Positions 5,033 through 23,611 of a DNA stretch of 23,611 nucleotides are shown here, piece by piece. The notes under the pieces were generated by a model. The model was not told where the DNA came from. It saw only the letters and a list, made by a program, of their open reading frames with translations, and made no database searches. This DNA comes from a virus: the IMG/VR virus record IMGVR_UViG_3300007603_000027, positions 1 to 23,611 of that record; one strand, given 5' to 3'. Position 1 is the first letter of the stretch, and the number at the start of each line of letters is the position of its first letter. The translations under genes and the position numbers were made by a program.

Positions 5033-5037
5033 ATAAA

Positions 5038-5277: not shown

Positions 5278-5302
5278 GTGTTGCTTAAGTTAATTATTTA
5301 AA

Positions 5303-5800: not shown

Positions 5801-5811
5801 TTTACTTATTA

Positions 5812-6773: not shown

Positions 6774-6776
6774 CAG

Positions 6777-6798: not shown

Positions 6799-6815
6799 TA
6801 TTGTGCAAGTATTTT

Positions 6816-7757: not shown

Positions 7758-7775
7758 TTAATTTACCTTTGGTTG

Positions 7776-9342: not shown

Positions 9343-9346
9343 ATTG

Positions 9347-9826
9347 TTATTCTGGTATTTCTTGCCACTTACCAATTGGGCATGCTTCAGTTGCCAATCT
9401 TATCTTTGCCCACGTTGAACAACCACATTTTGTGCATCTTCCCGTATTATTTAAAGCAACTGAGTCCCAAAATTCACACCCCTTGCAAATATTTTTACGT
9501 ATTTCAATTTGTTCTTCTGTTGCGTTTCTAGCTCCAGAAGACACCCATTTTGTTACAGCTGTGGCAGCAGATCCAATCATGGCAAGCGTTGAGGGTTTTT
9601 CTTTTTTGTCCATAACGCTTCTGTACCTAGCTAGCACCTTTTTGTGCATATCTATGTCTCTCTCTTCGCCTTTTTCAAGTCTGCAATGCCAGTAATCCAG
9701 CAAAAGATTTGGTTTAGTGTTTGTTATTTTAAATCCCCTAGATAGCCATTTATCTCTTTTTGCTGGTCTATCTTCAAGCGTCAATGCATATACAATTGGT
9801 TTTAGCTCTTCTTTGTTTATAGTCAT
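9347..9826 (-). CDS. Zinc-ribbon protein of a phage-associated family
   Basis: A 159-residue protein. The C-terminal 50 residues hold ICKGC, GRCTKCGCSTWAKIR and ACPIGKW (cysteines 114, 117, 131, 134, 136 and 149), a treble-clef or ribbon-like metal site. This 'CxxC...CxxCGC...K...CPxGKW' pattern is familiar from small phage proteins, often near glycosyltransferases, whose function is unknown to me. Residues 1-75 are helical and charged, and an alanine/glycine-rich segment sits at 80-95. Here too it directly precedes a glycosyltransferase gene (4 nt gap). The start ATG lies in an AT-rich leader after a 30-nt gap. Confidence 0.6.
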   Translation of the reverse strand: MTINKEELKPIVYALTLEDRPAKRDKWLSRGFKITNTKPNLLLDYWHCRLEKGEERDIDMHKKVLARYRSVMDKKEKPSTLAMIGSAATAVTKWVSSGARNATEEQIEIRKNICKGCEFWDSVALNNTGRCTKCGCSTWAKIRLATEACPIGKWQEIPE

Positions 9827-9856
9827 AATAAATTAATATTTAAATATAATGTTTAA

Positions 9857-11629
9857 CTAAACAAACGCCATAGCGTTACCTGGTCCTATTGGAAAAAAAT
9901 TCATTCCCGTGTAATTTGGTGGTGGTGGTCCTCCTCCTCCACCACCACATGATCCAGGATTATTAGGGCAGTCAGTTAGAGGAGGCAGGCTTGTGAAATT
10001 TTCGCAACCAGGGACTGGATCCTCAAATCCAAATGTTACTGAAATTTGCATTCCATGTGGGCCTCCATGTGTAGCATTATGGCTAGTTGCAGTCACCTTC
10101 ATTTTAAACATACCAGTACTTCCAGCAAATGTATTTACTGGAGTGGATCCAGAGAAATACCCTAATACGCAGCTATTACTATTTTGGTTACTGCTTTGTA
10201 AAGTTCCAACAGTTCCATAATTGTCTACCATACCCGAGACAGAAGCCGTTGGTTTATATTTTTTAAAACAATCTGGAAATTCTATCGAGGATTCTATATC
10301 TTTGGTTTGAGTAGCACCTGCGCAATCCGCGCTGCCAGATCCGCACGGAGATGAAGCCTCTTCGCAACCAGAGATTACCATATTATCTAAGTATTGATAA
10401 TTAGAGGCTACTTGACCACTTCCTGATTTGATGCAACACATCTCAAAGCATGGACAATCTTCAACCGATGGGGTTCCGCCTACTGCAATTTTCCACATTG
10501 TCTTCCCCTTCCATGAAGCCTCTGATGTCTTGGAATCGCAAGTACATGTATTCGCCAGCATTTTACCTAATACATAACTGAGGTCATTTACTTGACACGC
10601 ACATATGAATTCCCCTCCACCAGGATAGCAACACCTATTGCAATCTCTGTATCTAAATCTATCTAGGTCAATATTGTTGTCTTTTTTCCAGACGTCAGTA
10701 TTTCCCTTGCAATAATTCCAATCTGCTCCAGTTCTATTCCCACCTCCAAAAGCAGGCGCAATAGCGTTCCACATGTCATTGATATGGTTTGCCGTAATTA
10801 CTTGTGTAACATATCCTCCTTGATCATGGCTACGGATCCATTTTATTCCACGCTTTTCGTGATTTTGAGGACACAGCTGAGCGCTTGCGCTACAGCCTGG
10901 ATCTCCGTACGCACTCCCAGATGGGCCCAGCATATCGAAATAATTAGAATAATGCCATTGTTGGTTTATGTTGCAACATTCTTCACCTGAAGAATCACAT
11001 GGTGGATTCGTGTCACATATGCACACTGTTTTTGGAGTTGCATTGCCAATGCAAGCATTAATTACATCCATGTAGTTACTTGCCCATTTTCTCCCAAGGT
11101 TACATATATTATTGTCAACGCTTCTCCCAGGGTAGTTTTGGGACCTCCAGCTAGCTGGGTCCATGTCTGCACATGAATTCCCAGAACAACACCTGTATCT
11201 TGGGTAATGATCGCCGCCTTCCTCTAATTGCCATCCTCCACACCCATAACAGTCACTTTTTAAGTATACAATCCATGGACCGAAATCGCTATGATTGTAT
11301 GTATAGTTGTCGTTTGGGGCGGGTATTCTACTGTTTATGCTCCCCCCTGTAGTTATAAATCTTGTTTCAGAAAAAGCTGGATTTGCGCCTGGCGTTAATT
11401 TTATTGAAATAAATCCATCAATAGTAGCAAGCGGTTCTATCTCCTCTTTGTATGGGGCATCTCCATATTTAGGTCTTCCACTTCCAAGAAATAAATTTAT
11501 GCCATATTTTGCACATTCATCCCTGACTTGATTGTACTTTTTTCTTAGTTGAATTAAATCAGCCCATGACACACAACTCCCTGCCGAAACTGCAGCTCCC
11601 GGCCAGCCACTGTCATTTTGACACGCCAT
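9857..11629 (-). CDS. Cysteine-rich structural-type protein, 37 cysteines
   Basis: A 590-residue protein with 37 cysteines (about 6%), including four CC pairs, clusters such as CICDTNPPCDSSGEECC and DCPCFEMCC, and many WxNY/NYxD segments. It has no signal peptide, membrane helix or known domain I can name. From about residue 450 the cysteine density falls and the sequence becomes serine/glycine/threonine-rich and beta-like. The end holds a GGGGGGPPPP hinge and a hydrophobic tail. The N-terminus (ACQNDSGWPGAAVSAGSCVSWADL) suggests a repetitive adhesin-like or tail-spike-type protein. The cysteines could bind metal or be oxidised after lysis to rigidify an exposed virion protein. TAATAAGTAA (11635-11644) precedes the start. 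It lies next to the lipoprotein/protease pair. Confidence 0.6.
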   Translation of the reverse strand: MACQNDSGWPGAAVSAGSCVSWADLIQLRKKYNQVRDECAKYGINLFLGSGRPKYGDAPYKEEIEPLATIDGFISIKLTPGANPAFSETRFITTGGSINSRIPAPNDNYTYNHSDFGPWIVYLKSDCYGCGGWQLEEGGDHYPRYRCCSGNSCADMDPASWRSQNYPGRSVDNNICNLGRKWASNYMDVINACIGNATPKTVCICDTNPPCDSSGEECCNINQQWHYSNYFDMLGPSGSAYGDPGCSASAQLCPQNHEKRGIKWIRSHDQGGYVTQVITANHINDMWNAIAPAFGGGNRTGADWNYCKGNTDVWKKDNNIDLDRFRYRDCNRCCYPGGGEFICACQVNDLSYVLGKMLANTCTCDSKTSEASWKGKTMWKIAVGGTPSVEDCPCFEMCCIKSGSGQVASNYQYLDNMVISGCEEASSPCGSGSADCAGATQTKDIESSIEFPDCFKKYKPTASVSGMVDNYGTVGTLQSSNQNSNSCVLGYFSGSTPVNTFAGSTGMFKMKVTATSHNATHGGPHGMQISVTFGFEDPVPGCENFTSLPPLTDCPNNPGSCGGGGGGPPPPNYTGMNFFPIGPGNAMAFV

Positions 11630-11634
11630 AAAAA

Positions 11635-11895
11635 TTACTTATTAAATTTATAGCTATTAACTATTTGCTTTTTTTTATTTGTGCCAGAGTCAATAAACTC
11701 TACAACGTCAAAATTAATGTACACATATATAGATCCACTAACAGGATTCCAAACATTAATTTGTTTCCCCGCCTTGTTTAGTTCTATTATATTTTTAACT
11801 GGATAATTTATTTGTCTTTTGTCTCCATACGCAGAACAACCAACAAGGGAGAATAATACAAAAATAGAAAATAATATTACTTTAATGCGCTGCAT
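11635..11895 (-). CDS. Small predicted lipoprotein overlapping the protease gene
   Basis: An 86-residue product with a clear type II signal peptide: MQRIKVILFSIFVLFSLVGC, with lipobox LVGC and lipidated Cys20. The mature 67 residues are polar with a beta-like middle (INVWNPVSGSIYVYINFDVVEF). Its first 19 bases overlap the end of the papain-like protease gene, so the two are translationally linked. Possible roles are superinfection exclusion, a lysis spanin-like part, or an inhibitor or partner of the protease. None can be chosen from sequence. It lacks the proline-rich composition of Rz1. Confidence 0.65.
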   Translation of the reverse strand: MQRIKVILFSIFVLFSLVGCSAYGDKRQINYPVKNIIELNKAGKQINVWNPVSGSIYVYINFDVVEFIDSGTNKKKQIVNSYKFNK

Positions 11896-12572
11896 GCTTG
11901 TGCTCCTGATGATAGCAATTTTTCCATATCGCTAAATTTTACAAAAAATCTTCCGTTTTTCCCAAATTGACTTCCCCAACTATTGACGGCAAAGAATGTC
12001 TCCCATTGACAGTCTACTCCGTATATCAACCACGCATGACCACCCTCATAAGTTGAGATAGGTCTAGCAAAACCATTTTGGTCTGGTGTGGACATAGAAG
12101 CATACCAATTGCTCCCCATAACTACTGGACCGTTTTCGTAAATAAATTTTGCTATTTCCTCTACTGAATATCCCCATACATAATCTTTAATTAATCCAAG
12201 CTCTTTCAATACTTTTGCTCCAGCCCTAACGCTAGTCCCGTATGAGTCTGGCTCTTCTCCCTCCCATTGATCAATTTTTTGCGCCTTCGTGTAAATTTCT
12301 TGTGAAGTTATTTTAGGTAAATTTAAATCAAAAAATGGGCTAGATTGAATGAATTGCCCCCATGCGTATCCAACACAGTGACTAGTGGAACCCTGGTTTA
12401 ATGCGTTTCCTATTTTCCATGATTGCCTGATCGTATCACTTATGTCGGGCTTGTTTGCAAACATCAAATACTGCCTGTCTCTATCGTCATGACTAAATAA
12501 TAACCCCCTGCCAGCAAGAGGATGCTCGGATTTATGTTTACTAGTTATGTTAGTGTTATTGTTTTCTATCAT
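11877..12572 (-). CDS. Papain-like (C1 family) cysteine protease
   Basis: A 231-residue protein with the complete C1 catalytic set: Gln60 (oxyanion) and Cys66 in LNQGSTSHCVGYAWGQ, His179 in YEGGHAWLIYGVD, and Asn197 in FAVNSWGSQFGKNGRFFV. Only about 45 residues precede the core and there is no signal peptide, so no long inhibitory prodomain is present. In phages such proteases could mature virion proteins, act in the host cell or help degrade the envelope; the substrate is unknown. It leads a transcription unit: a strong terminator (12657-12682) lies upstream, and a TACAAT box sits 8 nt before the ATG. The downstream lipoprotein gene overlaps it by 19 nt. Confidence 0.8.
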   Translation of the reverse strand: MIENNNTNITSKHKSEHPLAGRGLLFSHDDRDRQYLMFANKPDISDTIRQSWKIGNALNQGSTSHCVGYAWGQFIQSSPFFDLNLPKITSQEIYTKAQKIDQWEGEEPDSYGTSVRAGAKVLKELGLIKDYVWGYSVEEIAKFIYENGPVVMGSNWYASMSTPDQNGFARPISTYEGGHAWLIYGVDCQWETFFAVNSWGSQFGKNGRFFVKFSDMEKLLSSGAQACSALK

Positions 12573-12580
12573 TTTATTTT

Positions 12581-12586
12581 ATTGTA
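12581..12586 (-). promoter_or_regulatory. Possible -10 box for the protease transcription unit
   Basis: Minus-strand TACAAT (5 of 6 with TATAAT) ends 8 nt before the ATG of the protease gene. No good -35 lies 16-18 nt upstream; a TTGACT at 12642-12647 is too far away. The preceding terminator requires some promoter in this 85-nt gap. Transcription from here would give an almost leaderless mRNA. The call is weak. Confidence 0.3.
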
Positions 12587-12656
12587 TTAATGCAGCAAAT
12601 TTAATTTGGCTTTCGATTTAATTTGTCACTTTATGTGCCATAGTCAATAAAAAAAT

Positions 12657-12682
12657 AAACGGAGGGGAAGGCCCCTCCGTTT
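12657..12682 (-). terminator. Strong intrinsic terminator after the cupin gene
   Basis: An 11-bp perfect stem (AAACGGAGGGG / CCCCTCCGTTT) with a 4-nt loop, followed on the minus strand by ATTTTTTTATTG. It would end the 13639-12775 transcript and insulate the protease unit. Two weaker hairpins precede it in the transcript (12718-12734 and 12685-12701). On the plus strand the stem is followed by no T run, so it acts on the minus strand. The rest of the 202-nt gap (12573-12774) holds no gene I can support. Confidence 0.85.
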
Positions 12683-12684
12683 AC

Positions 12685-12701
12685 GCTCTATTAAATAGAG
12701 C
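12685..12701 (-). repeat. Inverted repeat beside the terminator
   Basis: A perfect 7-bp stem (GCTCTAT / ATAGAGC) with a 3-nt loop lies 2 nt before the terminator stem in the transcript. A further 5-bp GTTAG/CTAAC dyad is at 12718-12734. The tandem hairpins may stabilise the 3' end of the cupin mRNA, which is inference. Confidence 0.5.
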
Positions 12702-12774
12702 CAACAACAACAAACACGTTAGAATACAACTAACAATATAAATATATGCTCAATATATTTAAAATACAATCTTT

Positions 12775-13293
12775 TTATTTAACTAAGTTCCACTCCCTGG
12801 AACATATAGTATTGAAGCATTCTTGCATACCTTCAATAGACTCTAAAGACTCAAGTAATGGAAGAGGAGGAGTCCATACACAAATTATTGTACCGTTTAT
12901 TTCTGGCTGATGTTTTTCGTTTGCTTTGTGGTGTATTATCTCTCCTGGATAAAATATTTTTCCAGATAAACTGTCTATTACGTATCCACTCACTACTATG
13001 ATTTTTTCGTCAAATTTATGAAAATGTAATGGAGCTACCCCAACCCCCTCACATATTGCCCTAGTGCAATTTTCGTCATTATCTATTAGCATTATTTTTA
13101 TCCCATCAAATAATGTGCCCCACTTACCGCTCACCATCACTCTAGATACATCTAAATTTCCACTACTATTGTCGTTGTGTGATTCAATTACCCTTGCCCC
13201 ATCATTAATTGCTTTAGCAGCGTGCGTAGCCGCCTTTCTTAATTTTTGATGAGCGCTCTTGAGCTCTGATTGTATGGGCGTTGTTGTATACAT
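12775..13293 (-). CDS. Cupin-domain protein
   Basis: A 172-residue protein. Residues 90-103, HFHKFDEKIIVVSG, fit the first cupin motif exactly (HxHx3Ex6G; His90, His92, Glu96), and 115-125, YPGEIIHHKAN, fits the second (PxG...H...N; His121 or His122). This indicates one metal-binding beta-barrel. Residues 1-35 form an alanine/lysine-rich helix (SAHQKLRKAATHAAKAIND). Cupins range from sugar epimerases/isomerases and dioxygenases to ligand binders. With phage glycan-modifying genes nearby, a sugar-related role is possible but not shown. It is the second gene of a two-gene unit after the holin candidate (1-nt gap) and is followed by a strong terminator. Confidence 0.65.
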   Translation of the reverse strand: MYTTTPIQSELKSAHQKLRKAATHAAKAINDGARVIESHNDNSSGNLDVSRVMVSGKWGTLFDGIKIMLIDNDENCTRAICEGVGVAPLHFHKFDEKIIVVSGYVIDSLSGKIFYPGEIIHHKANEKHQPEINGTIICVWTPPLPLLESLESIEGMQECFNTICSREWNLVK

Positions 13294-13294
13294 T

Positions 13295-13639
13295 CTATTG
13301 TTTATTGTTGTTTAGCGCTCTTTCAATAATCGCACATTGATTGGTTACATGGTCTTTTAGCCTGGATATAGCCAACTCTAGTTGAGCTTTGTTTTCTATT
13401 GAACCTGCTGTAATGGCTGGGGCGATGGCCTCAACAACTTGAGTTAGTGAGGTTATTGTTGATATATTCTCTTTTGATAAATCCAGTAGCTCCCTAGAAT
13501 ATATCCTTTCTTTCTCTTTATAGTCTTTAATGTCTTTAATTAAAAAATATATCCACCCAACCATTGTAGCAATTCCAACTCCAAATGTTTTAGCCAATTC
13601 TACTAAATTAGGTTCCGGTGGTATTACTTCTGGCAACAT
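13295..13639 (-). CDS. BhlA/UviB-like holin candidate
   Basis: A 114-residue protein with one membrane helix near residues 16-35 (TFGVGIATMVGWIYFLIKDI), then a charged helical tail rich in KEKERIYSRE, and about 70 residues of predicted coiled coil. A single N-terminal helix followed by a 'KxExxY...' amphipathic segment is the plan of the BhlA/UviB holin-like family, although this protein is longer than typical BhlA. A holin would release the endolysin-like protein at 6816-7757, far away in the window. It is transcribed from its own promoter (13649-13677). A tail or assembly membrane protein is the alternative. Confidence 0.45.
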   Translation of the reverse strand: MLPEVIPPEPNLVELAKTFGVGIATMVGWIYFLIKDIKDYKEKERIYSRELLDLSKENISTITSLTQVVEAIAPAITAGSIENKAQLELAISRLKDHVTNQCAIIERALNNNKQ

Positions 13640-13648
13640 AGTTAATAG

Positions 13649-13677
13649 ATAATACTGTAGTTACTCAACAATATCAA
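13649..13677 (-). promoter_or_regulatory. Sigma70-type promoter for the holin-cupin unit
   Basis: The minus strand reads TTGATA (13672-13677), a 17-nt spacer, then TATTAT (13649-13654); each box matches 5 of 6 consensus bases. It lies just after the terminator at 13692-13717, where a new promoter is required. The -10 ends only 9 nt before the ATG at 13639, so the transcript would be nearly leaderless. Confidence 0.6.
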
Positions 13678-13691
13678 AATAAAAAAAAAAT

Positions 13692-13717
13692 AAAAGGGCA
13701 CTTAATAGTGCCCTTTT
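13692..13717 (-). terminator. Intrinsic terminator after the two-helix membrane protein
   Basis: An 11-bp perfect stem (AAAAGGGCACT / AGTGCCCTTTT) with loop TAAT is followed on the minus strand by A and ten T residues. It closes the 14190-13744 transcript 27 nt after the stop codon. The A-flanked stem could also act on the plus strand, but no plus-strand genes exist here. Confidence 0.85.
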
Positions 13718-13743
13718 AAATTTCTAAATATTATTATTTGTTA

Positions 13744-14190
13744 TTATCTAGTTTTTTCTCTCATGAATGGAGTAGCTGGCCTTGATTTGATCTTCTTTTT
13801 GGGTGATGCAGCCTGGGCAACTGGGTTAGCTTTTGCCATTTTGTTGTTGTTCTTGAGGGCAGAAGAAAGGGCTTCAGATGTCTTAGACAGTGCAAGCCCG
13901 TCAATTTTGACTGGGCGCCCAGACTTAGCTAGAGTCGCCTGAATTTCTGCTCCATATTTTTTGATAATGTTAGCCGGAATCAATCCGACTAATCCATCAA
14001 TAATAGCCCAAAGCAAACCAGTAACTACGGTTGGGTTGATGAACTCCGCTGAATTAGGAATTTTTGCAGCAAGATATGCCACAATTATAGCTGCAGCAAA
14101 AGATACACCTTTTTGAATGTATGGCCCAAGTCTACCTAAAGCCATTTTTACTACGAATGTTTCTACGAATGATGGAAGTTTTAATTTCAT
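13744..14190 (-). CDS. Small two-helix membrane protein, possible holin
   Basis: A 148-residue protein with two membrane helices at about 27-43 (KGVSFAAAIIVAYLAAK) and 53-75 (PTVVTGLLWAIIDGLVGLI), a short loop between them and a long, strongly basic C-terminal tail (SPKKKIKSRPATPFMREKTR). Size, two helices and a basic tail are compatible with a class II holin. However, the tail is longer than usual and a second holin candidate is the next gene, so a different membrane role is possible. It has its own promoter (14211-14239) and terminator and so is expressed as a single gene. Confidence 0.5.
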   Translation of the reverse strand: MKLKLPSFVETFVVKMALGRLGPYIQKGVSFAAAIIVAYLAAKIPNSAEFINPTVVTGLLWAIIDGLVGLIPANIIKKYGAEIQATLAKSGRPVKIDGLALSKTSEALSSALKNNNKMAKANPVAQAASPKKKIKSRPATPFMREKTR

Positions 14191-14210
14191 GTTTTATGTA
14201 TTGAGCTGTC

Positions 14211-14239
14211 AGTATTGTTTATTTTTGGGTGTCTGTCAA
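14211..14239 (-). promoter_or_regulatory. Sigma70-type promoter
   Basis: The minus strand has a perfect TTGACA (14234-14239), a 17-nt spacer and AATACT (14211-14216; 4 of 6). It lies between the WcbI-like gene ending at 14257 and the membrane-protein gene starting at 14190, leaving a leader of roughly 15 nt. It is the best -35 box of any intergenic region in the window. Confidence 0.6.
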
Positions 14240-14256
14240 TTTTTTTTTACAAGCTA

Positions 14257-15234
14257 TTAACGAAGTATGTTTAAGTACTCTTTTATATCTGGAAATAGAT
14301 CTTCGTTTTCATTTTTGATTGCTTTAGCTAGATTTACTTGTCTGTCTATAAAGTTTATATCTACTGGGTATCCGAAATTCTTCAAGCGATTCTTACTAGA
14401 TGAATTTTCTATGTTTAAATTAGGGAACACTTCCCTAAAAAACCTAAATTCAAAGAAATTAGGTATTATTGAGGATGCACTTGGAAACACATTTTTATCT
14501 ATATCTAGCTCTAAGGACCAATCAGGATTTAACATTTCTATAAATCTTTTATGTAACTTTTTGTAATAGTAAGAAGTAGGATGGTTTGTAGAGGTTACAA
14601 TAAGATGATCTTTGTATTCATTAAGTATGTCCAATGTGTTTATATAGTTTTTAAATTTAGCTGATTCTTTTTTCTGTTTTCTTTTGTTTTTATTTATAGA
14701 TTTTTTTGCAGCATATTCTATTAATTTAGCAAATTTAGGATCGTACTCATTTTTTAACCAATTCAATATTTCACTATTGTTGTATCCTTGTTCGATTAAC
14801 CATATAAAAACATATGGCATAATTGTTTCACGGTCTTGATAAAATTGATTTAAATATCCAGAAAAATTAAATACAGGTAAACATATTACTTGTTTTTTAT
14901 TATTATATTTATGTTCAATATATTCGGTAGTTGCTTTTACGGGCCTCTCCCTGATGCCTTTTCTAAAATCCTGGCAAACAATAATATCTGCGTTATCTAT
15001 AATTCTCTCAATAGAGTGAATTACTTTTTTAGTAAATCCTTCATTTTTTTTAGCAGGCAAATACATGAATGGAGAAACCACAAAATCAGGCCATTTCGGC
15101 CAAACACTCATAAGATCATAGTCTGATGCTTTTAATACTTCATATAATTCATTGAATTGTGCATTTTCGTTAGTTAACGCTCGACCCAATACAGCTAATT
15201 GAAAATTTCCGTAAAAAACAATTTTTTGTTTCAT
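14257..15234 (-). CDS. WcbI-like polysaccharide-modifying protein, copy 2
   Basis: A 325-residue protein starting MKQKIVFYGNFQLAVLGRAL. The 'YGNxQ...L' first strand and the later NHPTSYYYKKLHK (about 220-232) resemble the WcbI family, capsule-biosynthesis enzymes with an SGNH-hydrolase-like fold proposed to act as acyl or acetyl transferases; here Phe replaces the usual Cys of GNCQ. It is clearly paralogous to the gene at 16913-17887: WLKNEYDPKF, FKNYINT and the PTSYYY region match, roughly half the residues being identical by eye. The start at 15234 forms an ATGA overlap with the upstream fusion gene, so the two are coupled. G+C is very low, which may mark acquired DNA. Confidence 0.55.
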   Translation of the reverse strand: MKQKIVFYGNFQLAVLGRALTNENAQFNELYEVLKASDYDLMSVWPKWPDFVVSPFMYLPAKKNEGFTKKVIHSIERIIDNADIIVCQDFRKGIRERPVKATTEYIEHKYNNKKQVICLPVFNFSGYLNQFYQDRETIMPYVFIWLIEQGYNNSEILNWLKNEYDPKFAKLIEYAAKKSINKNKRKQKKESAKFKNYINTLDILNEYKDHLIVTSTNHPTSYYYKKLHKRFIEMLNPDWSLELDIDKNVFPSASSIIPNFFEFRFFREVFPNLNIENSSSKNRLKNFGYPVDINFIDRQVNLAKAIKNENEDLFPDIKEYLNILR

Positions 15235-16847
15235 GTGCAATATTTTCTGTAAAGTTTGATATCAAGTTCCATGTTCTTAGAAATATAATTTTTTAATTCA
15301 TCATCAAGATCTTTAAATTTAATTATTTCACCTTGGCTATCATTTCTATTTATAATGCTTTTATCTTCAATCTCGCTTGAATCTATCCAATAGCACTCTT
15401 GAAAAACTTGATCAAACAATTTATCAATATTGTTAATATCGGATACCTTAAATGTGTCTAGCAATTTTACGGCTTCGTTGAAGTCTTTTTCTGTGCAAGG
15501 CATGGATTTAAAATTCGTAAGAACTCTTATATACCAATTGGAGTGCAGATCCTTAGATTTTATGTGATCTATAAATGATTTTGACTTTAAAAACTTATGA
15601 GATATTAACTCGTGTGATGAGCTATTTCCCTTGGAATAATTATAAAGAGATTGCTCTCTTTCAAATGGGTCCCTTAAATTAGTGTAACGTAACCCGCTTG
15701 TTCCAGCTATATTTAAGATGTCTTGTATTTTACTATCAAGTAGGCACAATCCATCTGGTTTTAATACTATAGAAAATAAATTAAAATTATATATTTTAAG
15801 ATCTTTTATGAAATTATCTATTTCACAATAATAAGTTCTATGATCTTTACTGTGTTCTGTAAAATTTACATTATTTATTCTTTTCTTTAGGGGGTCGTGC
15901 GCAAAAATAATTCCAACTTGTTTGCCTGAATCAGTTAATAAAAATCTACATAGATCAAGGTTCCAGTTTCTTTTGGAATTCCAAGATTTTTGAATTGCAT
16001 ACAGTCTATATAAATTAGCGGTAAGCCTGGTGGTGTAGGTTCCGCCACATCTTGGAAAATGTAAATAAATTGGTATTTTGGGTGGCTGAGTTTTTGAGCT
16101 AGAATTAATAACGCCTAAATATTTATTGTCTTTATTTAATAGCTCAATTATTAATTGCTCCCTTATTTTAGTTAAACTTAATTTATTCAACCCAGGAGAA
16201 TTGGATGTAAATTCGTCTACAGTTCTGTGTGCAACATGAAATACTTTGTGTTTGCTTAACGTCTCATAGTCTTTTGTGTATAGCGCAACGTATTTTCTTA
16301 CTGGGCAAATATTATAATTAACGCTTCCGCAATTTAAGTATAAAAAATTTTGATCATGGTAAACTGTATACCCCTTTCTTTTGTATTCTTTTTTAAGTAA
16401 TTGTTTATTTTGGTCTGAATACAATACTATGTCTTTGCAAAATGACAAAAACTGTTCTTTTGTGCCAAGTGCAAAGCATGGGCAATATCTATCTAAAAAT
16501 GTTATTTTATCTGTTGGTTCTTTTATATCATTTATAGATAAGTATCTATTTACAACATCATAATCGGATACAAAAAATGATTCACTTTCATCTTGGGTAG
16601 AGTACGCAAGCCACCTTAAGTAGCAAGATAGTCCATATTGGCTTAATCTACTTCCAGAAATATCAATGTGGATTCTTTCAACACTTTGTTTAAACTCGTT
16701 GTAATATGGACTTCTTTCAGCATCACGTTGATTTAATATAATTGCCTCAAATCCATTTTGTTCCCAACTCTGTTTCCAAAGGTTTAATATCTCTGTTTGA
16801 TCTTCTTCTCCTAATTCCTCAAAATATGTGTATATTTTATTTTTCAC
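15231..16847 (-). CDS. Fusion of glycosyltransferase-like and sulfotransferase domains
   Basis: A 538-residue protein starting with GTG (16845-16847). Residues 1-210 resemble DxD-type sugar transferases: KIYTYFE start, LWKQSWEQNGFEAIILN, YLRWLAYST near 76-84, then FFVSDYDVVN with the acidic motif at 95-97. Residues 256-538 are a PAPS-type sulfotransferase: HFPRCGGTYTTRL (263-275) is the phosphosulfate loop and LRDPFEREQSLYNY (391-404) the 3'-phosphate motif. The C-terminal part aligns with the separate sulfotransferase at 7776-8612. It probably adds a sugar and sulfates the same glycan. It is preceded by the repeated promoter element R2 and coupled to the WcbI-like gene downstream. Confidence 0.65.
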   Translation of the reverse strand: MKNKIYTYFEELGEEDQTEILNLWKQSWEQNGFEAIILNQRDAERSPYYNEFKQSVERIHIDISGSRLSQYGLSCYLRWLAYSTQDESESFFVSDYDVVNRYLSINDIKEPTDKITFLDRYCPCFALGTKEQFLSFCKDIVLYSDQNKQLLKKEYKRKGYTVYHDQNFLYLNCGSVNYNICPVRKYVALYTKDYETLSKHKVFHVAHRTVDEFTSNSPGLNKLSLTKIREQLIIELLNKDNKYLGVINSSSKTQPPKIPIYLHFPRCGGTYTTRLTANLYRLYAIQKSWNSKRNWNLDLCRFLLTDSGKQVGIIFAHDPLKKRINNVNFTEHSKDHRTYYCEIDNFIKDLKIYNFNLFSIVLKPDGLCLLDSKIQDILNIAGTSGLRYTNLRDPFEREQSLYNYSKGNSSSHELISHKFLKSKSFIDHIKSKDLHSNWYIRVLTNFKSMPCTEKDFNEAVKLLDTFKVSDINNIDKLFDQVFQECYWIDSSEIEDKSIINRNDSQGEIIKFKDLDDELKNYISKNMELDIKLYRKYCT

Positions 16848-16869
16848 TCTTAAATTAGTATATAGGACT
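16841..16869 (-). repeat. Direct repeat R2 upstream of the fusion gene
   Basis: This 29-nt stretch is identical at 27 positions to 17881-17909. The repeat spans the promoter -10 region, the leader and the start codon (GTG here, ATG in the other copy) and runs into the first codon. Beyond it, towards the -35, similarity fades. The same block thus sits at the start of two different genes. Confidence 0.75.
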
Positions 16870-16883
16870 CACTTAAATGCCAA
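16855..16883 (-). promoter_or_regulatory. Putative promoter within repeat R2
   Basis: The minus strand reads TTGGCA (16878-16883), 17 nt, then TACTAA (16855-16860); TATACT overlapping it is an alternative -10. The layout is the same as in R1 at 17895-17923. The -10 ends 7 nt before the GTG start, so the mRNA would have almost no leader. The -10 match is modest. Confidence 0.4.
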
Positions 16884-16912
16884 ATATTAGTAAGATGTGA
16901 ATTTTTATCATT

Positions 16913-17887
16913 TTATGAGTTGAGTATATTTAAGTACTCTTGTATTCCTGGATGCATGCCCTGGTTTTCGTTTTTCATTTTATTGGAGATAATTACTTGT
17001 TCGTTTATGAATTCTATATCCACTGGTCTCATAAAATTGGTTAAAGATTTTTCGTAAGATAATTGTTCTATGTTTAAACTAGGGAACGCTTCTTTGAAAA
17101 ATTTAAGTTCAAACAAGTTAGGAATATTTGATCCACTTGGAAATATGTTTTTATTTGTATCTAATTCAAATACCGATTTGGGATCTAGTATGTGTGTAAT
17201 TTTTTTACATATTTCTCCATAATAATAAGACGTTGGGCAATTCATGGAGGACACAATTAGATTATCTTTGTATTTATTGAGTGTGTCGCAAGTGTTTATA
17301 TAATTTTTAAATTTAAGTGATTCTTGCTGCTGTCTTTTGCTATTTTGATTTATAGATTTATTTGCTGCATGTTCGATTAAATCAAAAAATTTTGGATCAT
17401 ACTCGTTTTTTAGCCAGTCCAATATTTCATTATTGCTGTATCCTTTTTCGGTTAACCATAGAAAAACGTATGGCATCACCGCATCGCTATTTGGGTACTG
17501 CTCATTTAAGTATCCAGAAAAAGATACAATAGGTAAGCATACTATTTGTTTTTGTTTAGAATATTTATCGTGAATATATTCCGTAGTGCATTCGATTGGT
17601 CTTTTTTCAACATCTTTTTTGAAATTTTGACAAACAATAATGTCTGCATCATCCATTGCAGATTGAATAGAATCTATCACCTCCTGAGTAAACCCGTCAC
17701 TTTTCTTGTTAGATAAGTACGTAGATGGACAAATTACAAAATTAGGCCACTCTTTCCAAGTGCTATTAAGATTGTAATCTGATGCCTTTATTGCCTGGTA
17801 TGATTCATTAAATTTTAAATCTTGTGCTAGGGCCCTGCCAATGACCGCTAGTTGCATATTTCCGTAGTAAACGATTTTCTTTTTCAT
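16913..17887 (-). CDS. WcbI-like polysaccharide-modifying protein, copy 1
   Basis: A 324-residue protein starting MKKKIVYYGNMQLAVIGRAL. I use the ATG at 17887, where the domain begins and where the paralogue starts, rather than one 12 codons upstream (17923). It shares the YGNxQ N-terminus and NCPTSYYYGEI (about residues 220-230) with the copy at 14257-15234, and with WcbI-type capsule enzymes (SGNH-like fold, proposed acyltransferase in capsule synthesis). Met replaces the Cys of GNCQ. Conservation between copies is strongest in the middle (WLKNEYDPKF; FKNYINT). Promoter-like repeat R1 runs into its start codon. Its stop is 66 nt before the fusion gene, so it may also be read through into the next genes. 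Confidence 0.55.
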   Translation of the reverse strand: MKKKIVYYGNMQLAVIGRALAQDLKFNESYQAIKASDYNLNSTWKEWPNFVICPSTYLSNKKSDGFTQEVIDSIQSAMDDADIIVCQNFKKDVEKRPIECTTEYIHDKYSKQKQIVCLPIVSFSGYLNEQYPNSDAVMPYVFLWLTEKGYSNNEILDWLKNEYDPKFFDLIEHAANKSINQNSKRQQQESLKFKNYINTCDTLNKYKDNLIVSSMNCPTSYYYGEICKKITHILDPKSVFELDTNKNIFPSGSNIPNLFELKFFKEAFPSLNIEQLSYEKSLTNFMRPVDIEFINEQVIISNKMKNENQGMHPGIQEYLNILNS

Positions 17888-17909
17888 TCTTAAATTAGTA
17901 TGTAGGACT
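17881..17909 (-). repeat. Direct repeat R1 upstream of WcbI-like copy 1
   Basis: This is the partner of the 29-nt block at 16841-16869 (27 of 29 identical). Next to it is a dyad TGACT-CTAA-AGTCA (17909-17922) that overlaps the putative -35 box and is not conserved in R2, so R1 may carry an operator that R2 lacks. Confidence 0.75.
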
Positions 17910-17923
17910 GACTCTAAAGTCAA
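17895..17923 (-). promoter_or_regulatory. Putative promoter within repeat R1
   Basis: The minus strand reads TTGACT (17918-17923; 5 of 6), 17 nt, then TACTAA (17895-17900). The box spacing equals that in R2. The -10 ends 7 nt before the ATG at 17887. A 5-bp dyad covers the -35. The -10 match is poor, so confidence is moderate only. Confidence 0.4.
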
Positions 17924-17941
17924 ATATAAATAAACACTATT

Positions 17942-18119
17942 TTATTCATCGATGGGCGATACTTCTTCCACTTGAACTTCAACTGGAATGTCTGAAGCAT
18001 CCACTGGTACCGAGGCCCACGTCAGCCCGAGCCTTGCAATTTCCGCTTCACACTCTTCTTGAGTCCCCGTAAAAAAAATACTCTGTGTAGATATTGATTT
18101 CAGAACCAACGCCGCCCAT
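17942..18119 (-). pseudogene. Small fibre-module gene broken by a one-base shift at an 8-T run
   Basis: From the ATG at 18119 the frame reads MGGVGSEINIYTEYFF and then enters a run of eight T residues (18071-18078), after which it stops within a few codons. Removing one T gives a continuous 58-residue protein, going on TGTQEECEAEIARLGLTWAS and ending VEEVSPIDE with TAA at 17942. The TGTQEECEAEIARLG segment resembles the end of the 62-residue neighbour (SEEQAKAEL). The break may be a sequencing error in the homopolymer, a real mutation, or slippage at the T8 run. It is the last gene of the fibre module. No function is assigned; small genes here are sometimes fibre assembly partners. Confidence 0.6.
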
Positions 18120-18171
18120 CGGGACTAACGAAAGGCTCATTAAGTGCTGTAGGAGTTGGGAAGTTTATCAT
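18100..18171 (-). CDS. Very short ORF overlapping the 62-residue gene by ATGA
   Basis: The ATG at 18171 overlaps the upstream TGA as ATGA, the coupling style used elsewhere in this genome, and gives 23 residues: MINFPTPTALNEPFVSPDG then RRWF and TGA. The start resembles the N-terminus of the 100-residue protein at 19694-19996 (IDFPNSPSDGY...EGRRWKW), a common beginning of small phage fibre-associated proteins. It may be the real start of the broken gene at 17942-18119, in which case a second frame change is needed near 18105, or a decayed remnant. Confidence 0.4.
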   Translation of the reverse strand: MINFPTPTALNEPFVSPDGRRWF

Positions 18172-18356
18172 TGTAATTCGGCTTTCGCTTGCTCCTCGCT
18201 GTCAAACCAACTCCACCCATCCACAGGGTAAGTATGCTCGTCTTTAGCTTCTCTATATAGTCGATAACGTGCATTGATTACGAAGTTAGGTCCATGTAAA
18301 AGTTGCCCCTCGTCCAATTTGTAGAATCCTGATGTGTTTAACGTTTCTTCATCCAT
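18168..18356 (-). CDS. Small fibre-module protein, 62 residues
   Basis: A 62-residue protein: MDEETLNTSGFYKLDEGQLL, HGPNFVINARYRLYREAKDEH, then YPVDGWSWFDSEEQAKAEL. Proteins with the 'SGFYKLDxGxLxxGPNFV...YPVDGWxWFDS' pattern are familiar as small products next to phage fibre genes, possibly assembly partners or tip proteins, with no proven role known to me. The ATG follows the stop of the leucine-rich-repeat gene by 4 nt and its TGA overlaps the next ATG. Confidence 0.55.
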   Translation of the reverse strand: MDEETLNTSGFYKLDEGQLLHGPNFVINARYRLYREAKDEHTYPVDGWSWFDSEEQAKAELQ

Positions 18357-18360
18357 AAAA

Positions 18361-19692
18361 TTATCCTGTTACAGTCCAGTTTTTAGCCGTAGCTATTGAT
18401 ATATCATCGGCGACATTGCCATAATTGCCTGTGACCGTAATTGTCCTGGTTGTTGCTACTGAGGCTAAGTTAGTATAAATCTGATTAAGTGCAGCTGTGC
18501 TTAATCGGCAATTTGCAAAATCCACGTTTACCTTCATGCCTGTTACGGTGCATGATGTGAGTGAGCGGCAGGTGTTAAATGTGGTTCCAAGAGTCGTCAT
18601 AGCATTAAAGTTGCACGGCCCCAGCTTTCTTAAAGTGTGGCAGTTTATAAAAGCTGAGGCTGCGGTCGTGCATAACGGCAGGCTCCACAGAGATATATCA
18701 ACTGCTTGCAATGCAAAGCAGTTTTCAAACATATTAGCGATTGTAGTAACTTTTGCGGTGTTCCAGTTGCGAACGTTTAGCGTTCCCAGAGAGCGACAAT
18801 TGTGAAAAGTGTAACTAAAATTTGTGCAGTTAGCAGTATTCCAATTTCCGACATCTATATCCGTGAGAGCACTACAGTTTTGAAACATACTTGAGAGGCT
18901 TGTAGCTGCCGATGTGACCCAGTTCGTGCAAATTACTTTTTGGATAGTTTGACAATCCCGGAGCATATCCGCAAAAGTGGTGACTTTTGACATGTTCCAA
19001 CTAGACCCATCTATTACCTTTATACCACTGCACGAAAAAAACATGGCTGCAACAGTGGTTATGTTTGACATGTTCCACTCTGTCTCGTTTATAGACTGAA
19101 GCGCAGGACAATACTGAAATAAAGCGCCGACATTGTTAACTAATCCCCAAGAAGAGATATAGACCCTTTCGAGGTAAGAGTGGCGAACAGCTGACGACCC
19201 GATAAACAACCTTTGCGCGGCTAAAAGATTTGGAAGATTTATATTAACATCAAGCAAACCCGTAGCGTACATTTGCATGCCGGTTGGCGACGTGATTTTT
19301 TGCGATAGATCGCAAAGTGTAAATGTTGCCGAGCCTACTGGCGTTATGGTAATTATGGCTTGCTTATATCCGCGAGTAGAGAGAGTGCCATCCAATCCAG
19401 AAGAACTGTAGCTGTAATTGTAGGTAGTATTTGCGTTGCTTAATGCTGTTGTGGTATTACCGTCTCCCCAGTTTATAGTGTATGCGGAGTTGTCGGAGGT
19501 CTGCATTTTGATAACCACATAGTTTTCAGTTTGATCAAAAACAGCATGTAGTATTTTTACGGAATTAGCTTCGGCAGAAGGTAGTACGAGCCAATCGGAA
19601 GGACGGACCCATGCAGTGCTTGATCCACCTCCTCCACCAGTTTCAGTAAAAAGTGGCACTGTTCCTAAATAAGCTTTTACAACGGTAGGCAT
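18361..19692 (-). CDS. Fibre protein with PKD-like domain and BspA-type leucine-rich repeats
   Basis: A 443-residue protein. Residues 1-25 (VVKAYLGTVPLF, then GGGGG) form an attachment-type start and hinge. Residues 45-125 resemble a PKD-like beta-sandwich (YTINWGDGNTTT). From about 180 to 385 there are some eight repeats of about 25 residues with pattern W-N-x-x-x-x-T-x-x-x-x-x-F-x-x-C-x-x-L, as in BspA/DUF285 surface proteins (NMSNITTVAAMFFSCSGI; NTAKVTTIANMFENCFAL). Almost every repeat has a cysteine at the same place, forming a ladder. BspA-type repeats bind other surfaces, so this is likely a receptor-binding protein. It starts 1 nt after the stop of the 100-residue gene. Confidence 0.7.
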   Translation of the reverse strand: MPTVVKAYLGTVPLFTETGGGGGSSTAWVRPSDWLVLPSAEANSVKILHAVFDQTENYVVIKMQTSDNSAYTINWGDGNTTTALSNANTTYNYSYSSSGLDGTLSTRGYKQAIITITPVGSATFTLCDLSQKITSPTGMQMYATGLLDVNINLPNLLAAQRLFIGSSAVRHSYLERVYISSWGLVNNVGALFQYCPALQSINETEWNMSNITTVAAMFFSCSGIKVIDGSSWNMSKVTTFADMLRDCQTIQKVICTNWVTSAATSLSSMFQNCSALTDIDVGNWNTANCTNFSYTFHNCRSLGTLNVRNWNTAKVTTIANMFENCFALQAVDISLWSLPLCTTAASAFINCHTLRKLGPCNFNAMTTLGTTFNTCRSLTSCTVTGMKVNVDFANCRLSTAALNQIYTNLASVATTRTITVTGNYGNVADDISIATAKNWTVTG

Positions 19693-19693
19693 A

Positions 19694-19996
19694 TTATTGT
19701 TTTATGAAATAAATTGTATTTGCATCTTTTGTCAATCCGTCGTATTCGGCCTGAGTAACACAACGAATAGTATTAACTGGAGTAGTGTCTGCCCCTTGTT
19801 TTTCTATTTTGCTATCTAACTCTGGCTGTAGGTTAACCACATTGTAAATTTGTAAGGTATACGGCTGACTAGCTGCATAATTAAGCCATGCGCCTGTTGT
19901 GGCATCCCATTTCCAGCGACGGCCTTCAATGGATGTTTCGTTTTCTGGCGGATAAATATATCCGTCACTTGGTGAATTTGGAAAATCTATTGGCAT
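19694..19996 (-). CDS. Small fibre-associated protein, 100 residues
   Basis: The N-terminus (PIDFPNSPSDGYIYPP, then EGRRWKWDATTGAWLNY) is the common start of small phage tail proteins ('FPNSPsxGdxyxxxGrxWxWDG'). The C-terminus (RCVTQAEYDGLTKDANTIYFI) is the equally common 'TQAEYDxLxxKDxNTLYFI' ending found on fibres and structural proteins. Between them is a fibre-like segment (NVVNLQPELDSKIEKQ) like the one in the gene at 22511-23611. It is probably a short fibre or a connector. It starts 5 nt after the stop of the 835-residue gene. Confidence 0.6.
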   Translation of the reverse strand: MPIDFPNSPSDGYIYPPENETSIEGRRWKWDATTGAWLNYAASQPYTLQIYNVVNLQPELDSKIEKQGADTTPVNTIRCVTQAEYDGLTKDANTIYFIKQ

Positions 19997-20001: not shown

Positions 20002-22509
20002 TTAAGTTCTTAATGGTTGATTGTTTTTAAATGGATGATCGCTCGGTAGCGACGAAGTTATTTGAAATTTCCAAGCCAGATACCCTTCAATTTTTTGCCT
20101 AACTTCTTCCACTGGAATATAATTTAACATAACAAGCTCTCCAAGTGTCCCGTTTAAAAATGCTCCACCTCCATTATTCCCCAATACGGTCGCCCCTCCC
20201 GCCATGCAAACCGCTCCAGATAGAGCTGACCCTGTTGCCCTTAAAGACCCGTTTACCCATACACTAAACCCCGGATTCGTCCCGGTTGGGTTGGTGTTCA
20301 TTGTGATCGATAAAATAAACAGTTCGGGATATGCACCCGTAAAAAAATTATCCACTATGAGTCTATTTATTTGAGTATTGGCGGCGTTTGTTCCAAAATC
20401 TACATATAATTTATTATTTGCAGTCCAAAATATATTTCGACCAGACAAATTGCCCCCGATAGAAGTTTCTTGTAATAAGCATGAATTACTTGTAGTGTCT
20501 TGGTTCTTTCTTATTACAGCGAACACGGTTTCTTGTGTATACGGTGTTCCGAATTCTAAATTTAAAATATTTCTATCCAGCCCGCTTACTCTTGCTAAAA
20601 GAGCTTTAGTGGATGTGTCAAACCATATAGAACGATTCAGATTTATTATCGCGTTAGGAACAAGTGATAAAGTCTGGATAGACGATTGTGGTCTGTTGGC
20701 ATCTGTGGGTTGAGTTAGAGACATCCCTGAATTTTTCCTATCCGATATAGTTGTAAGTTTATAAGTACTTGCAAAACTTAAGTATCTTGTGTCTGTCGGG
20801 TCAAGCCAAACCGCAGTGTTTATATCGTAAGGACTCCACCAAGTATAAATATCTCGCGGGGCCTGTGCATCGTCCTGTACTCCTGTGTTCTGTACATTAT
20901 CAGAAGTAACAGTGTTACGTAGCCCACCCCAAAAAAGTAGCTGAGATTTTCTAGAGTCTATTGGTACCGCCGCACAAGCCCAAGAGCGATTATTATAAAT
21001 CTCTGTTACACTCGATGCTACACTCAGAACTTCTGCTGAAAGTTGACTTGCACCTCCCCCAATCACTCCGTTTTGACGCCAATAATGGTCGTTACTATTA
21101 GTTGTGTTAGACCATAGGTCTGTAATTCCAGAGCCCTCTGGGGGCATCGTTCCAAGAGTATCATGTCTCTTAAATACAGTATACGCAGTCCCAGTATTAT
21201 CTAAAATAACTAGCCTCCAATAATTGGAATGTATATCTTTTATTCCTGTAGTTGGGTGTGTGCCGTCAAAAGCAAAAGAAGCTACTATTGAGCCGTCTGT
21301 GCGTAGCCCTAGTACATTTGTACCCTCTGAAGCTACAATTTTTTTTAGATTTGTCCAGTTTCCTGTTCCAGACGTTGCTGCTCCGCCAGCATTTATTACA
21401 CTCAAGTGAGGAAAACCCGAGGAAAAACTAGTCCAACCAACAGCGCGACCATCCGACTTAATCGCAACAGCATGGCTTCCACTTATAGGACAAAGATGTC
21501 TTAAATTATTTCCGGGAGCTGTTTTGAGAGACGTAGGAATTTGTGTTACTCCGCCGAAACTGGAACCCCAACCGTACAATAAGTTATCTGTAGTTAATAA
21601 AAAAGATTGATCTGATCCGGGCCATACTTTTTTAACCAAATTTTGTCCTCGATAGGCGGTAGGGACAACCCCCTCGCTGTATTGTCCTCCAGATGTACCC
21701 AGATTCCTGAGATAACCATCTGGCGTAATAATAAGAAAACTGCCACCATTTCCCAAAGCTACATTTTCACGGCCAGTTCCGTACACCGGAAGTCCAGTTA
21801 TTTTAACGTTTGAAATAGTGGAATTCGGCAGATTTTGCGCCCAAGCGGCAAATCTGTAAGCCCTATTCCTGAGATTAAATGTAAATGATCCAGTGGTAGG
21901 CGCTGTCCCGTTGAGACTATAGCTCCAACCTCCATCAGTAACCGTTATCTCTAGGGTTTGCGCGACCCCTATTGTTTCATTTCCCTGTGCCGAGCTTAAT
22001 GAAGTTATTGTAGTTCCATTATTAAAAACTAACTGCCCAGCAAACTCTCCAGCAGTAGAAAACCCGATGCCATACGCTCCTGAAGAACTTTGGTTAAAGG
22101 GATCCGAGCTGCCTGTAGTCGCATACGAAGAAACAACCAAGCCGACCGAAAATCGTGTCATGGTGGCAGTATTTCTCCATGCAGCATTTAGAGTAAACCC
22201 GTTCTCATTGCTCCATGTGTTTGTAGAAAACAAACCTGATCGGGGATTGCTGCCTGTCGAAACTCCCGCAACATAATCGTTATTGGTGTCCAGCATCCAA
22301 TTCCCGTTAAGTCCACCCTGTGAATAAAGCCCAGAAGCAGCTAAATCGGAACCGGTAAAATTACTTTGATAAACTTCTTGCGGCACTGTAGCTGTTTGAC
22401 CGTTTTTTATATAAATAGGAGAACGCCAAACTCTAGTATTTCCAAAAAATGCTGTTGAGGCATTGGCAGAGTTAAAAACAATTTCAGAAGCTGCAGAAAT
22501 TTCAGGCAT
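20002..22509 (-). CDS. Receptor-binding-type protein: lectin-like, RCC1 propeller and LamG-like domains
   Basis: An 835-residue protein. Residues 1-35 (SEIVFNSANAST, FFGNTRVW) form a typical phage fibre attachment start. Residues 48-240 form a jelly-roll-like domain (FTGSDLAASGLYS; TLEITVTDGGWSYSLNG). From about 245 to 530 are RCC1-type propeller blades (ENVALGNGGSFLIITPDGYL; QSFLLTTDNLLYGWG; HAVAIKSDGRAVGW; NVLGLRTDGSIVA). Residues 563-825 form a LamG/concanavalin-like domain ending IEGYLAWKFQ, then LPSDHPF, a well-known closing motif. Two carbohydrate-binding-type folds around a propeller indicate host-surface recognition at the tail. It begins 1 nt after the preceding stop. Confidence 0.7.
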   Translation of the reverse strand: MPEISAASEIVFNSANASTAFFGNTRVWRSPIYIKNGQTATVPQEVYQSNFTGSDLAASGLYSQGGLNGNWMLDTNNDYVAGVSTGSNPRSGLFSTNTWSNENGFTLNAAWRNTATMTRFSVGLVVSSYATTGSSDPFNQSSSGAYGIGFSTAGEFAGQLVFNNGTTITSLSSAQGNETIGVAQTLEITVTDGGWSYSLNGTAPTTGSFTFNLRNRAYRFAAWAQNLPNSTISNVKITGLPVYGTGRENVALGNGGSFLIITPDGYLRNLGTSGGQYSEGVVPTAYRGQNLVKKVWPGSDQSFLLTTDNLLYGWGSSFGGVTQIPTSLKTAPGNNLRHLCPISGSHAVAIKSDGRAVGWTSFSSGFPHLSVINAGGAATSGTGNWTNLKKIVASEGTNVLGLRTDGSIVASFAFDGTHPTTGIKDIHSNYWRLVILDNTGTAYTVFKRHDTLGTMPPEGSGITDLWSNTTNSNDHYWRQNGVIGGGASQLSAEVLSVASSVTEIYNNRSWACAAVPIDSRKSQLLFWGGLRNTVTSDNVQNTGVQDDAQAPRDIYTWWSPYDINTAVWLDPTDTRYLSFASTYKLTTISDRKNSGMSLTQPTDANRPQSSIQTLSLVPNAIINLNRSIWFDTSTKALLARVSGLDRNILNLEFGTPYTQETVFAVIRKNQDTTSNSCLLQETSIGGNLSGRNIFWTANNKLYVDFGTNAANTQINRLIVDNFFTGAYPELFILSITMNTNPTGTNPGFSVWVNGSLRATGSALSGAVCMAGGATVLGNNGGGAFLNGTLGELVMLNYIPVEEVRQKIEGYLAWKFQITSSLPSDHPFKNNQPLRT

Positions 22510-22510
22510 A

Positions 22511-23611
22511 TCAAGTAGGAACTATAACATACAAAACATTTGTGTCCACCACAGAAGGCAATGTAGAAACAATAGCTATTCCGTTTATACCTCCGGTGTT
22601 TGATATTTTTGAATTTAAAGTTGCTTGAAGATTAGTGACCTCTGAAATAGCGTGTGAAGGTGTTGAGTTTGCGGCTCCAATTATCGACGGAGTTAAAGTC
22701 ACTGCCCCTGTCAAGCCGTTCACGCTGTCTACCGCCCCGCCAGTTCCAGGATCAGGGGTAGTTCCCCCTCCGCCAGTTCCTTCAATTACTAGAGGACCAA
22801 AACCTGCAGCGGCCTCTACCCAGTAGCCATCGATTTTATTAAAAATCCTAGCTGTGCTGGTTTGAATCCATAAGTTGTATGTGGTGTCTGTGGGTGGGGT
22901 ATCTCCGTAATAAACTGATGCAGTTGGAAATGTTAAATCAGTAATTTCCGACATTACATGAGTGTGCCCTACAGCAGACTTTCCAGCTAACGAACTAGAT
23001 AAATTTGTTACCTGTGAAATGGTGTGAGTGTGATTTGCATCGGCTTTTACAGAAATAGCGGCAGCCCAATCAGTTATCTGTGAAGTTGTATGTGTGTGGC
23101 TGCTTGCAGCAGCATCTATACGCCATCTAACATTTGATGCAGTTGACTCCCCGAGGATAGTTCTTCCAAGAGACGTACATCCGATCTCTTCTACTGCCCC
23201 TGCTCCCGCTGTCGCTCTACCCAAAAGCCGATCAGTTGCCGAAACATTCTGCATCTTAGCATATGTAACAGCTCCAGCAGCAATATCCTCAGTGACAACA
23301 GCTCCCGCAGCAATTTTTTCTGTTGTTACCGCTCCGTCAGCTAATTTTGCTGTGTTCACAGCCCCGTTGTCTATTGTCCAAGTAGCTCCCGAAGCGGAAA
23401 CCGTGACATCGCCCTTATCTCCATCGGTGACCCCTCCTACAGAGGTAGCTGAAAATGTTAATGAGTTATTAACAGAATCGGCAGTGATTGTTACTCCAGT
23501 TCCGGCAATAAAATTAGCGGTATCTAACCCTTCCGCTGTGAGTCCAGGTTGTCCGTCTACTTCCCAATACTTGAACGTAGAGTTCATTTGGACCTTGGCA
23601 TTTCCATTACC
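22511..23611 (-). CDS. Tail fibre protein with HxH repeats, N-terminus beyond the window
   Basis: At least 366 residues. The frame is open to the window edge: eight codons (GNGNAKVQ) precede the first ATG at 23587, so the start is probably outside, although that ATG with AAGG 6 nt upstream cannot be ruled out. Residues (from 23587) near 70-115 contain 'xGAVTxEKIAAGAV' repeats. Near 160-220 are SSHTHTTSQITDW, ANHTHTISQVTNL and VGHTHVMSEITDL, with a degenerate fourth copy (PSHAISEVTNL) near 315. HxH motifs in trimeric fibres such as T4 gp37 coordinate iron along the fibre axis. VNGLTGAVTL and the C-terminal LPSVVDTNVLYVIV are common fibre endings. Confidence 0.72.
   Translation of the reverse strand, partial: GNGNAKVQMNSTFKYWEVDGQPGLTAEGLDTANFIAGTGVTITADSVNNSLTFSATSVGGVTDGDKGDVTVSASGATWTIDNGAVNTAKLADGAVTTEKIAAGAVVTEDIAAGAVTYAKMQNVSATDRLLGRATAGAGAVEEIGCTSLGRTILGESTASNVRWRIDAAASSHTHTTSQITDWAAAISVKADANHTHTISQVTNLSSSLAGKSAVGHTHVMSEITDLTFPTASVYYGDTPPTDTTYNLWIQTSTARIFNKIDGYWVEAAAGFGPLVIEGTGGGGTTPDPGTGGAVDSVNGLTGAVTLTPSIIGAANSTPSHAISEVTNLQATLNSKISNTGGINGIAIVSTLPSVVDTNVLYVIVPT

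Follow-up and report, generated by a model that had tools for sequence, protein, structure and literature searches.

Three elements are already known separately: the glycosylation of virions by phage enzymes, glycosyltransferase genes within fibre islands, and sulfotransferases of phages (PMC12619734, PMC7029224, PMC10580990). Mycobacteriophage glycosyltransferases are reported to act on the capsid and tail tube (Freeman et al. 2023, cited in PMC12619734). Pelagimyophages carry hypervariable host-recognition islands that mix fibres with several glycosyltransferases, mainly GT8, read as modifying the O-antigen (PMC7029224). Phage sulfotransferases have been listed as auxiliary genes whose function was called unclear (PMC10580990), and WcbI of B. 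pseudomallei holds acetyl-coenzyme A (acetyl-CoA) through Cys14 and His201, its acetyltransferase activity never having been demonstrated and a partner protein having been proposed (PMC4104973). Here we analyse an IMG/VR virus record of 23,611 bases (IMGVR_UViG_3300007603_000027; the whole stretch is called the window) in which two gene units combine two predicted glycosyltransferase families (GTa and GTb), putative sulfotransferases (ST) and WcbI-like proteins. We propose, with moderate confidence, that these genes belong to a mobile phage-borne glycan-assembly module that most likely decorates the virion, its activity and acceptor being predicted. All genes discussed lie on the minus strand, and those of the two units are as follows.

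14257-15240, minus strand: WcbI-like A, 327 amino acids (aa); Phe in place of the CoA-holding Cys, His retained
15231-16847, minus strand: GTa-ST fusion, 538 aa, GTG start; predicted GT-A domain at residues 1-245, putative sulfotransferase at 250-538
16913-17923, minus strand: WcbI-like B, 336 aa, or 324 aa if started at the ATG at 17887; Met in place of the Cys, Cys in place of the His
7776-8630, minus strand: stand-alone putative sulfotransferase, 284 aa; not in the sibling contig L003
8605-9375, minus strand: GTb, putative glycosyltransferase with an ExD motif, 256 aa; internal ATG at 9342
9347-9826, minus strand: zinc-ribbon protein, part of the GTb module; full-length match to its L039 and L069 counterparts

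The original prediction had placed the WcbI-like, fusion, ST and GTb reading frames correctly, except that WcbI-like B extends to 17923 and GTb to 9375, positions 17887 and 9342 being internal ATGs. The resemblance to mycobacteriophages lies in function: phage-encoded glycosyltransferases act there on the particle, and that account mentions neither sulfotransferases nor WcbI. The pelagimyophage islands are likewise mixtures of fibres and glycosyltransferases, whereas both glycosyltransferase families of the window lack a Pfam model and are accompanied by sulfotransferases and WcbI-like proteins, some of these modules being fused. The auxiliary phage sulfotransferases and those of the window would both be of the type that uses 3'-phosphoadenosine-5'-phosphosulfate (PAPS); the former match Sulfotransfer_3, whereas the latter are divergent, fall below Pfam detection and are linked to or fused with glycosyltransferases. 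The window WcbI-like proteins are homologous to B. pseudomallei WcbI (4BQN, PF18588) over about 230 residues, yet Cys14 is gone from both and His201 from B, and they are encoded by a phage and not in a capsule operon. A literature search, with most subscription journals outside its coverage, turned up neither a phage WcbI nor the four-module set.

Genes of the four families recur together in unrelated phages, in changing order and in part fused, and frequently amid apparent structural genes. Three scans of viral contigs with separate seeds (GTa, WcbI and GTb) converged on the same modules, with modest counts; L- and G-numbers label the compared viral loci and records, which are fragments. PF18588 was found in 5 of the 22 records retrieved by the GTa motif alone, and among the nine loci retrieved by WcbI alone, GTa was present in seven and a sulfotransferase in eight. 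GTa was adjacent to GTb, fused to it or at most about 2.5 kb away in 16 of 33 GTb loci; several near duplicates are among them (L089-L092 and L094-L096). Four control phage loci (118 kb) held no such module matches. The modules are fused as GTa-ST in the window, as zinc-ribbon-GTb-GTa in L039 and as GTb-GTa in L069. In L060, a 217-kb contig, GTb, ST, a second ST, GTa and WcbI are flanked by fibre-like genes, and L039 brings WcbI, GTa, ST and the three-domain fusion together in one block. All four modules thus occur in a single block in both L060 and L039, which supports the proposal that 7776-9375 belongs with the second cassette (14257-17923). L063 and L066 each carry several STs, WcbI and GTa. 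In a clade formed by L042, L067, L080, L090, L094, L097 and L100, a portal-like open reading frame (ORF) is immediately followed by GTb-GTa and then, on contigs that extend far enough, by scaffold- and capsid-like ORFs. Direct searches with the window proteins found no relatives in IMG/VR peptide patterns, phage records or plasmids; the glycosyltransferase domain alone gave one match among phage records (E 7), which was rejected as chance-level. As regards individual relatives, positions 10905-18075 of L066 contain at least five sulfotransferase-like ORFs, two GTa genes and one WcbI-like gene. L039, a 63.6-kb phage contig with an RIIA homologue, has at 1398-9569 a long sugar cluster with UDP-galactopyranose mutase, RgpF-type, DUF5672, epimerase, WcbI-like, GTa and ST genes.

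Residues ~1-245 of the fusion (GTa) matched no library family at a convincing E-value and had no Pfam match. Relatives were retrieved with a hand-made degenerate DNA pattern for YxxxCYLRWLA, which returned 22 viral stretches, true relatives for the most part. In an alignment of 27 GTa sequences, W24, G32, R78, A81, D95 and D97 are invariant and D165 and H204 nearly so; D95 and D97 form the DxD motif, in keeping with the acidic motif pointed out in the original prediction. An AlphaFold2 model of residues 1-250, built with the 27 homologues and restricted to this domain because a joint GTa and ST alignment misplaced the ST rows, reached pLDDT 91.1 and pTM 0.89. Its top Foldseek matches in the PDB were GT-A enzymes (probability 1.0, TM ~0.45), namely UGGT, LARGE1, glycogenin, the PBCV-1 capsid glycosyltransferase and WbbM; a TM score near 0.45 indicates that GTa shares the general GT-A fold as a distant family. 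The PBCV-1 enzyme (2P72) is likewise viral and of GT-A type and has been described as attaching sugars to the major capsid protein, but it comes from a eukaryotic virus and its similarity to GTa is at fold level only (~10% identity). On this high-confidence model, GTa is predicted to be a glycosyltransferase of GT-A fold, as anticipated.

A related GTa motif, scanned across 84,980 bacterial and archaeal genomes, yielded two relatives. One is L067 (NHEC01000087.1, from a metagenome-assembled genome (MAG) of Planctomycetes bacterium TMED75), a contig that is itself phage-like and, although binned as bacterial, has the gene order of L042, L080, L090, L094, L097 and L100; the other lies on a 3.8-kb MAG contig. 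The GTa signature is therefore almost confined to viral contigs, a rough contrast because the motifs used in the two scans differed slightly.

The stand-alone ST and the C-terminus of the fusion are paralogues (26% identity, E 1e-23). Neither window copy matched any Pfam profile; both, however, carry the PRxxGTY loop and the RDxxxRxxSxYxY motif, in agreement with the PAPS-loop and 3'-phosphate motifs previously reported. The glycine loop and RDxxxRxxSxY are conserved among ten sequences of the family, the alignment of which was too diverse to drive a motif scan. Compared with a set of neighbouring phage proteins, the ST profile aligned at the 3'-phosphate motif (hhalign 93.7%, E 2e-7); all three scanned members of that set match Sulfotransfer_2, and the profile of the set matches heparan-sulfate sulfotransferases. 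The PAPS-loop Lys position is occupied by Arg in both window copies, a residue that also occurs there in tyrosylprotein sulfotransferases. These similarities point to a divergent PAPS-type sulfotransferase family lying below Pfam detection.

GTb forms a separate family, putatively of glycosyltransferases, that carries an ExD motif and whose members lie beside or fused to GTa in phages; it has no Pfam match, and profile comparison detected no similarity between GTa and GTb. It is 54% identical to the L039 domain placed between the zinc-ribbon and GTa domains of one 662-aa ORF. The window zinc-ribbon protein matches over its full length the N-terminus of this fusion (48%) and is 37% identical to the product of the gene preceding GTb-GTa in L069, where a collagen-like fibre gene is followed by zinc-ribbon, GTb-GTa fusion and ST. 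The zinc-ribbon, GTb and ST genes of the window thus correspond to an L069-type unit minus GTa, which sits in the second cassette fused to the other ST. The near sibling of the window, L003/L004, has a portal protein 96% identical to that of the window, and L003 is collinear with positions 13-14190, yet it lacks GTb and ST, and only the C-terminal half of its zinc-ribbon gene matches. The GTb and ST pair has therefore been gained or lost as a block and is mobile cargo. It should be noted that the L003 contig stops at the border of the second cassette, hence this comparison covers the first unit only.

PF18588 matched WcbI-like A above its curated cut-off of 29.2 bits (E 7e-8, 32.7 bits) and WcbI-like B below it (E 8e-5, 22.9 bits), and the two proteins are 57% identical. 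A profile of seven phage WcbI-like proteins matched B. pseudomallei WcbI 4BQN over ~230 residues (E 1.4e-13). Together with the GTa fold and the ST paralogy, these matches uphold the proposed arrangement, in which two WcbI-like proteins flank a glycosyltransferase-sulfotransferase fusion. A and B are accordingly WcbI homologues by sequence, their status as working WcbI enzymes being putative. The YGNxQ starts, which had been offered as evidence for WcbI, sit exactly where the CoA-holding Cys belongs, and Phe or Met is found there. Aligned with 4BQN, the Cys14 and His201 positions are Phe and His in A and Met and Cys in B, whereas 11 other phage homologues retain both Cys and His, so that the window copies are the exceptions. 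Because the Cys is replaced in both copies and the His also in B, the acylation that the original prediction had suggested is doubtful for A and B, while homologues elsewhere keep the residues concerned. Such losses could mean that 14257-17923 is recent cargo with decaying WcbI-like copies and little function in the window phage, as could the low G+C content of the cassette (28-31%, versus 41-43% in the portal and fibre genes) and the absence of GTb and ST from the sibling. We consider this unlikely, since pairwise comparison of A and B gave dN 0.27 against dS 1.35 (nonsynonymous and synonymous divergence), indicating purifying selection under which both copies look constrained, all cassette reading frames are uninterrupted, and the DxD and sulfotransferase motifs are retained. 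A and B may instead have a non-acylating role, possibly as partner proteins.

The genes next to the second cassette on its fibre side bear on the acceptor of the predicted glycan and are listed below.

18361-19692, minus strand: fibre-type gene with DUF285 (PF03382) repeats, E 2e-28
20002-22509, minus strand: fibre-type gene
22511-23587, minus strand: fibre-type gene with phage tail repeat PF12789, E 2e-21

These three genes are candidate sources of the glycan acceptor. The placement of the cassette between fibre and lysis genes, as first described, holds on the fibre side; the other side has one membrane-type ORF and a papain-like peptidase, and family searches gave zero lysis-family matches there. 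The family name of the DUF285 repeats derives from mycoplasmas.

In the mechanism that we favour, GTb and GTa would act successively in the infected cell, attaching sugars to a cytoplasmically made protein, most likely a fibre or another exposed virion protein from a neighbouring gene, and ST would sulfate the glycan. In homologous cassettes, a WcbI that retains Cys and His would O-acylate the glycan, whereas in the window A and B would probably be non-acylating partners of the GTa-ST enzyme. Such a sugar coat could alter particle charge and shield or retune the contact between fibre and receptor.

The same enzymes might instead remodel a host surface polysaccharide (O-antigen or capsule), acting cytoplasmically on lipid-linked intermediates so as to exclude superinfection or ease release. 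WcbI and sulfotransferases are indeed known from capsule work (PMC4104973), and the glycosyltransferases of pelagimyophage fibre islands have been interpreted in this way (PMC7029224). Relatives of the cassette also carry Glf, epimerase and RgpF-type enzymes. However, all five window enzymes are soluble, being devoid of transmembrane segments. The priming transferase (PF02397) and Wzx (PF01943) were found in none of 21 records (~0.9 Mb), and GtrA (PF04138) exceeded its cut-off in none of them, with one sub-threshold match in G035; these searches were positive in 7 to 13 of 14 control genomes, and the absences are weak because the records are fragments. In addition, the cassettes often lie amid virion-type genes, which suggests late expression. 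The position of the cassettes in what look like structural operons, with no membrane or export partner found, leans towards the virion, and we regard host remodelling as plausible but less likely. That the cassette modifies glycans, as originally predicted, is well supported; as to whether the virion or the host capsule is the target, we infer that the balance tips to the virion.

Several observations weigh against virion decoration. The enzyme activities are predicted and the acceptor is a candidate only; GTb and ST are known by sequence, the fold model covering GTa only. Genes of UDP-galactopyranose-mutase type are present in L039, L059 and L063, and RgpF-type glycosyltransferases in L039 and L063; both would fit work on host polysaccharide as well. 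In the L042 clade, ORFs were labelled portal and capsid from gene order, family searches having given nothing useful. Finally, the L038 cassette adjoins a DNA ligase gene rather than virion genes. This last neighbour would suit a role in which the glycosyltransferases protect phage DNA from restriction by modifying it, ST and WcbI completing the altered base, and phage glycosyltransferases that act on DNA are known (reviewed in PMC12619734). Virion-type genes and not DNA metabolism border most cassettes, however, and this explanation appears very improbable. We know of no precedent for sulfated DNA bases.

Decoration of the virion by a mobile module hence remains our preferred reading. A more ambitious form of it, which we put forward tentatively, is that two largely phage-specific glycosyltransferase families, sulfotransferases and WcbI-type acylases constitute a dedicated, modular phage virion-glycan system that would make sulfated glycoprotein particles, the acylase of the window lineage being a catalytically dead partner of the fusion.

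Its gene content marks the window as part of a larger genome. The portal-type protein encoded at 3091-4827 (minus strand) is 24-26% identical to those of Vibrio phages, including D181, and of Salmonella phage Arash (~180 kb); the cassette was not found in the portal regions of D181 and Arash. The sibling L003/L004 encodes RNA-polymerase-like large subunits (read by eye; Arash is annotated likewise), so that the window probably comes from a large phage. Candidate glycosyltransferase/MptE-like (16793-17548) and prolyl-4-hydroxylase-like (19247-19879) genes were recognised by eye among the late genes of L003. A Cys-rich protein with no family match adjoins the zinc-ribbon-GTb-ST unit; it has 590 aa in the window (9857-11629) and 1052 aa in L003 (2546-5704), with 57% identity over ~400 aa. 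The papain-like cysteine peptidase (11877-12572) matches phrog_16701 (E 6.5e-45) and the Pfam C1 and C70 families over cut-off, and is 84% identical to its L003 counterpart. Between the fibre block and the cassette, a small, fibre-associated-looking gene (17940-18175, minus strand) is split into two frames around a T run, through gene breakage or a mistake in assembly. At 12655-12684 and 13691-13718 (minus strand) are two strong hairpins that resemble terminators and carry T tails, and 13 such sites were observed in 7000-18700 versus 6.7 expected. PADLOC returned no credible defence match.

The recurrent linkage and fusion of sulfotransferases with two Pfam-less glycosyltransferase families amid apparent virion genes provides phage sulfotransferases with a candidate role, the building of a sulfated glycan, probably on the particle. 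The analysis also yields searchable signatures that could be used for annotating many viral contigs, and the lineage of the window offers a case for asking how a WcbI-type protein functions once its CoA cysteine is gone. The reshuffling of the same small enzyme set beside genes for particle proteins in many unrelated phages points to phages dressing their own virions in tailor-made sugars.

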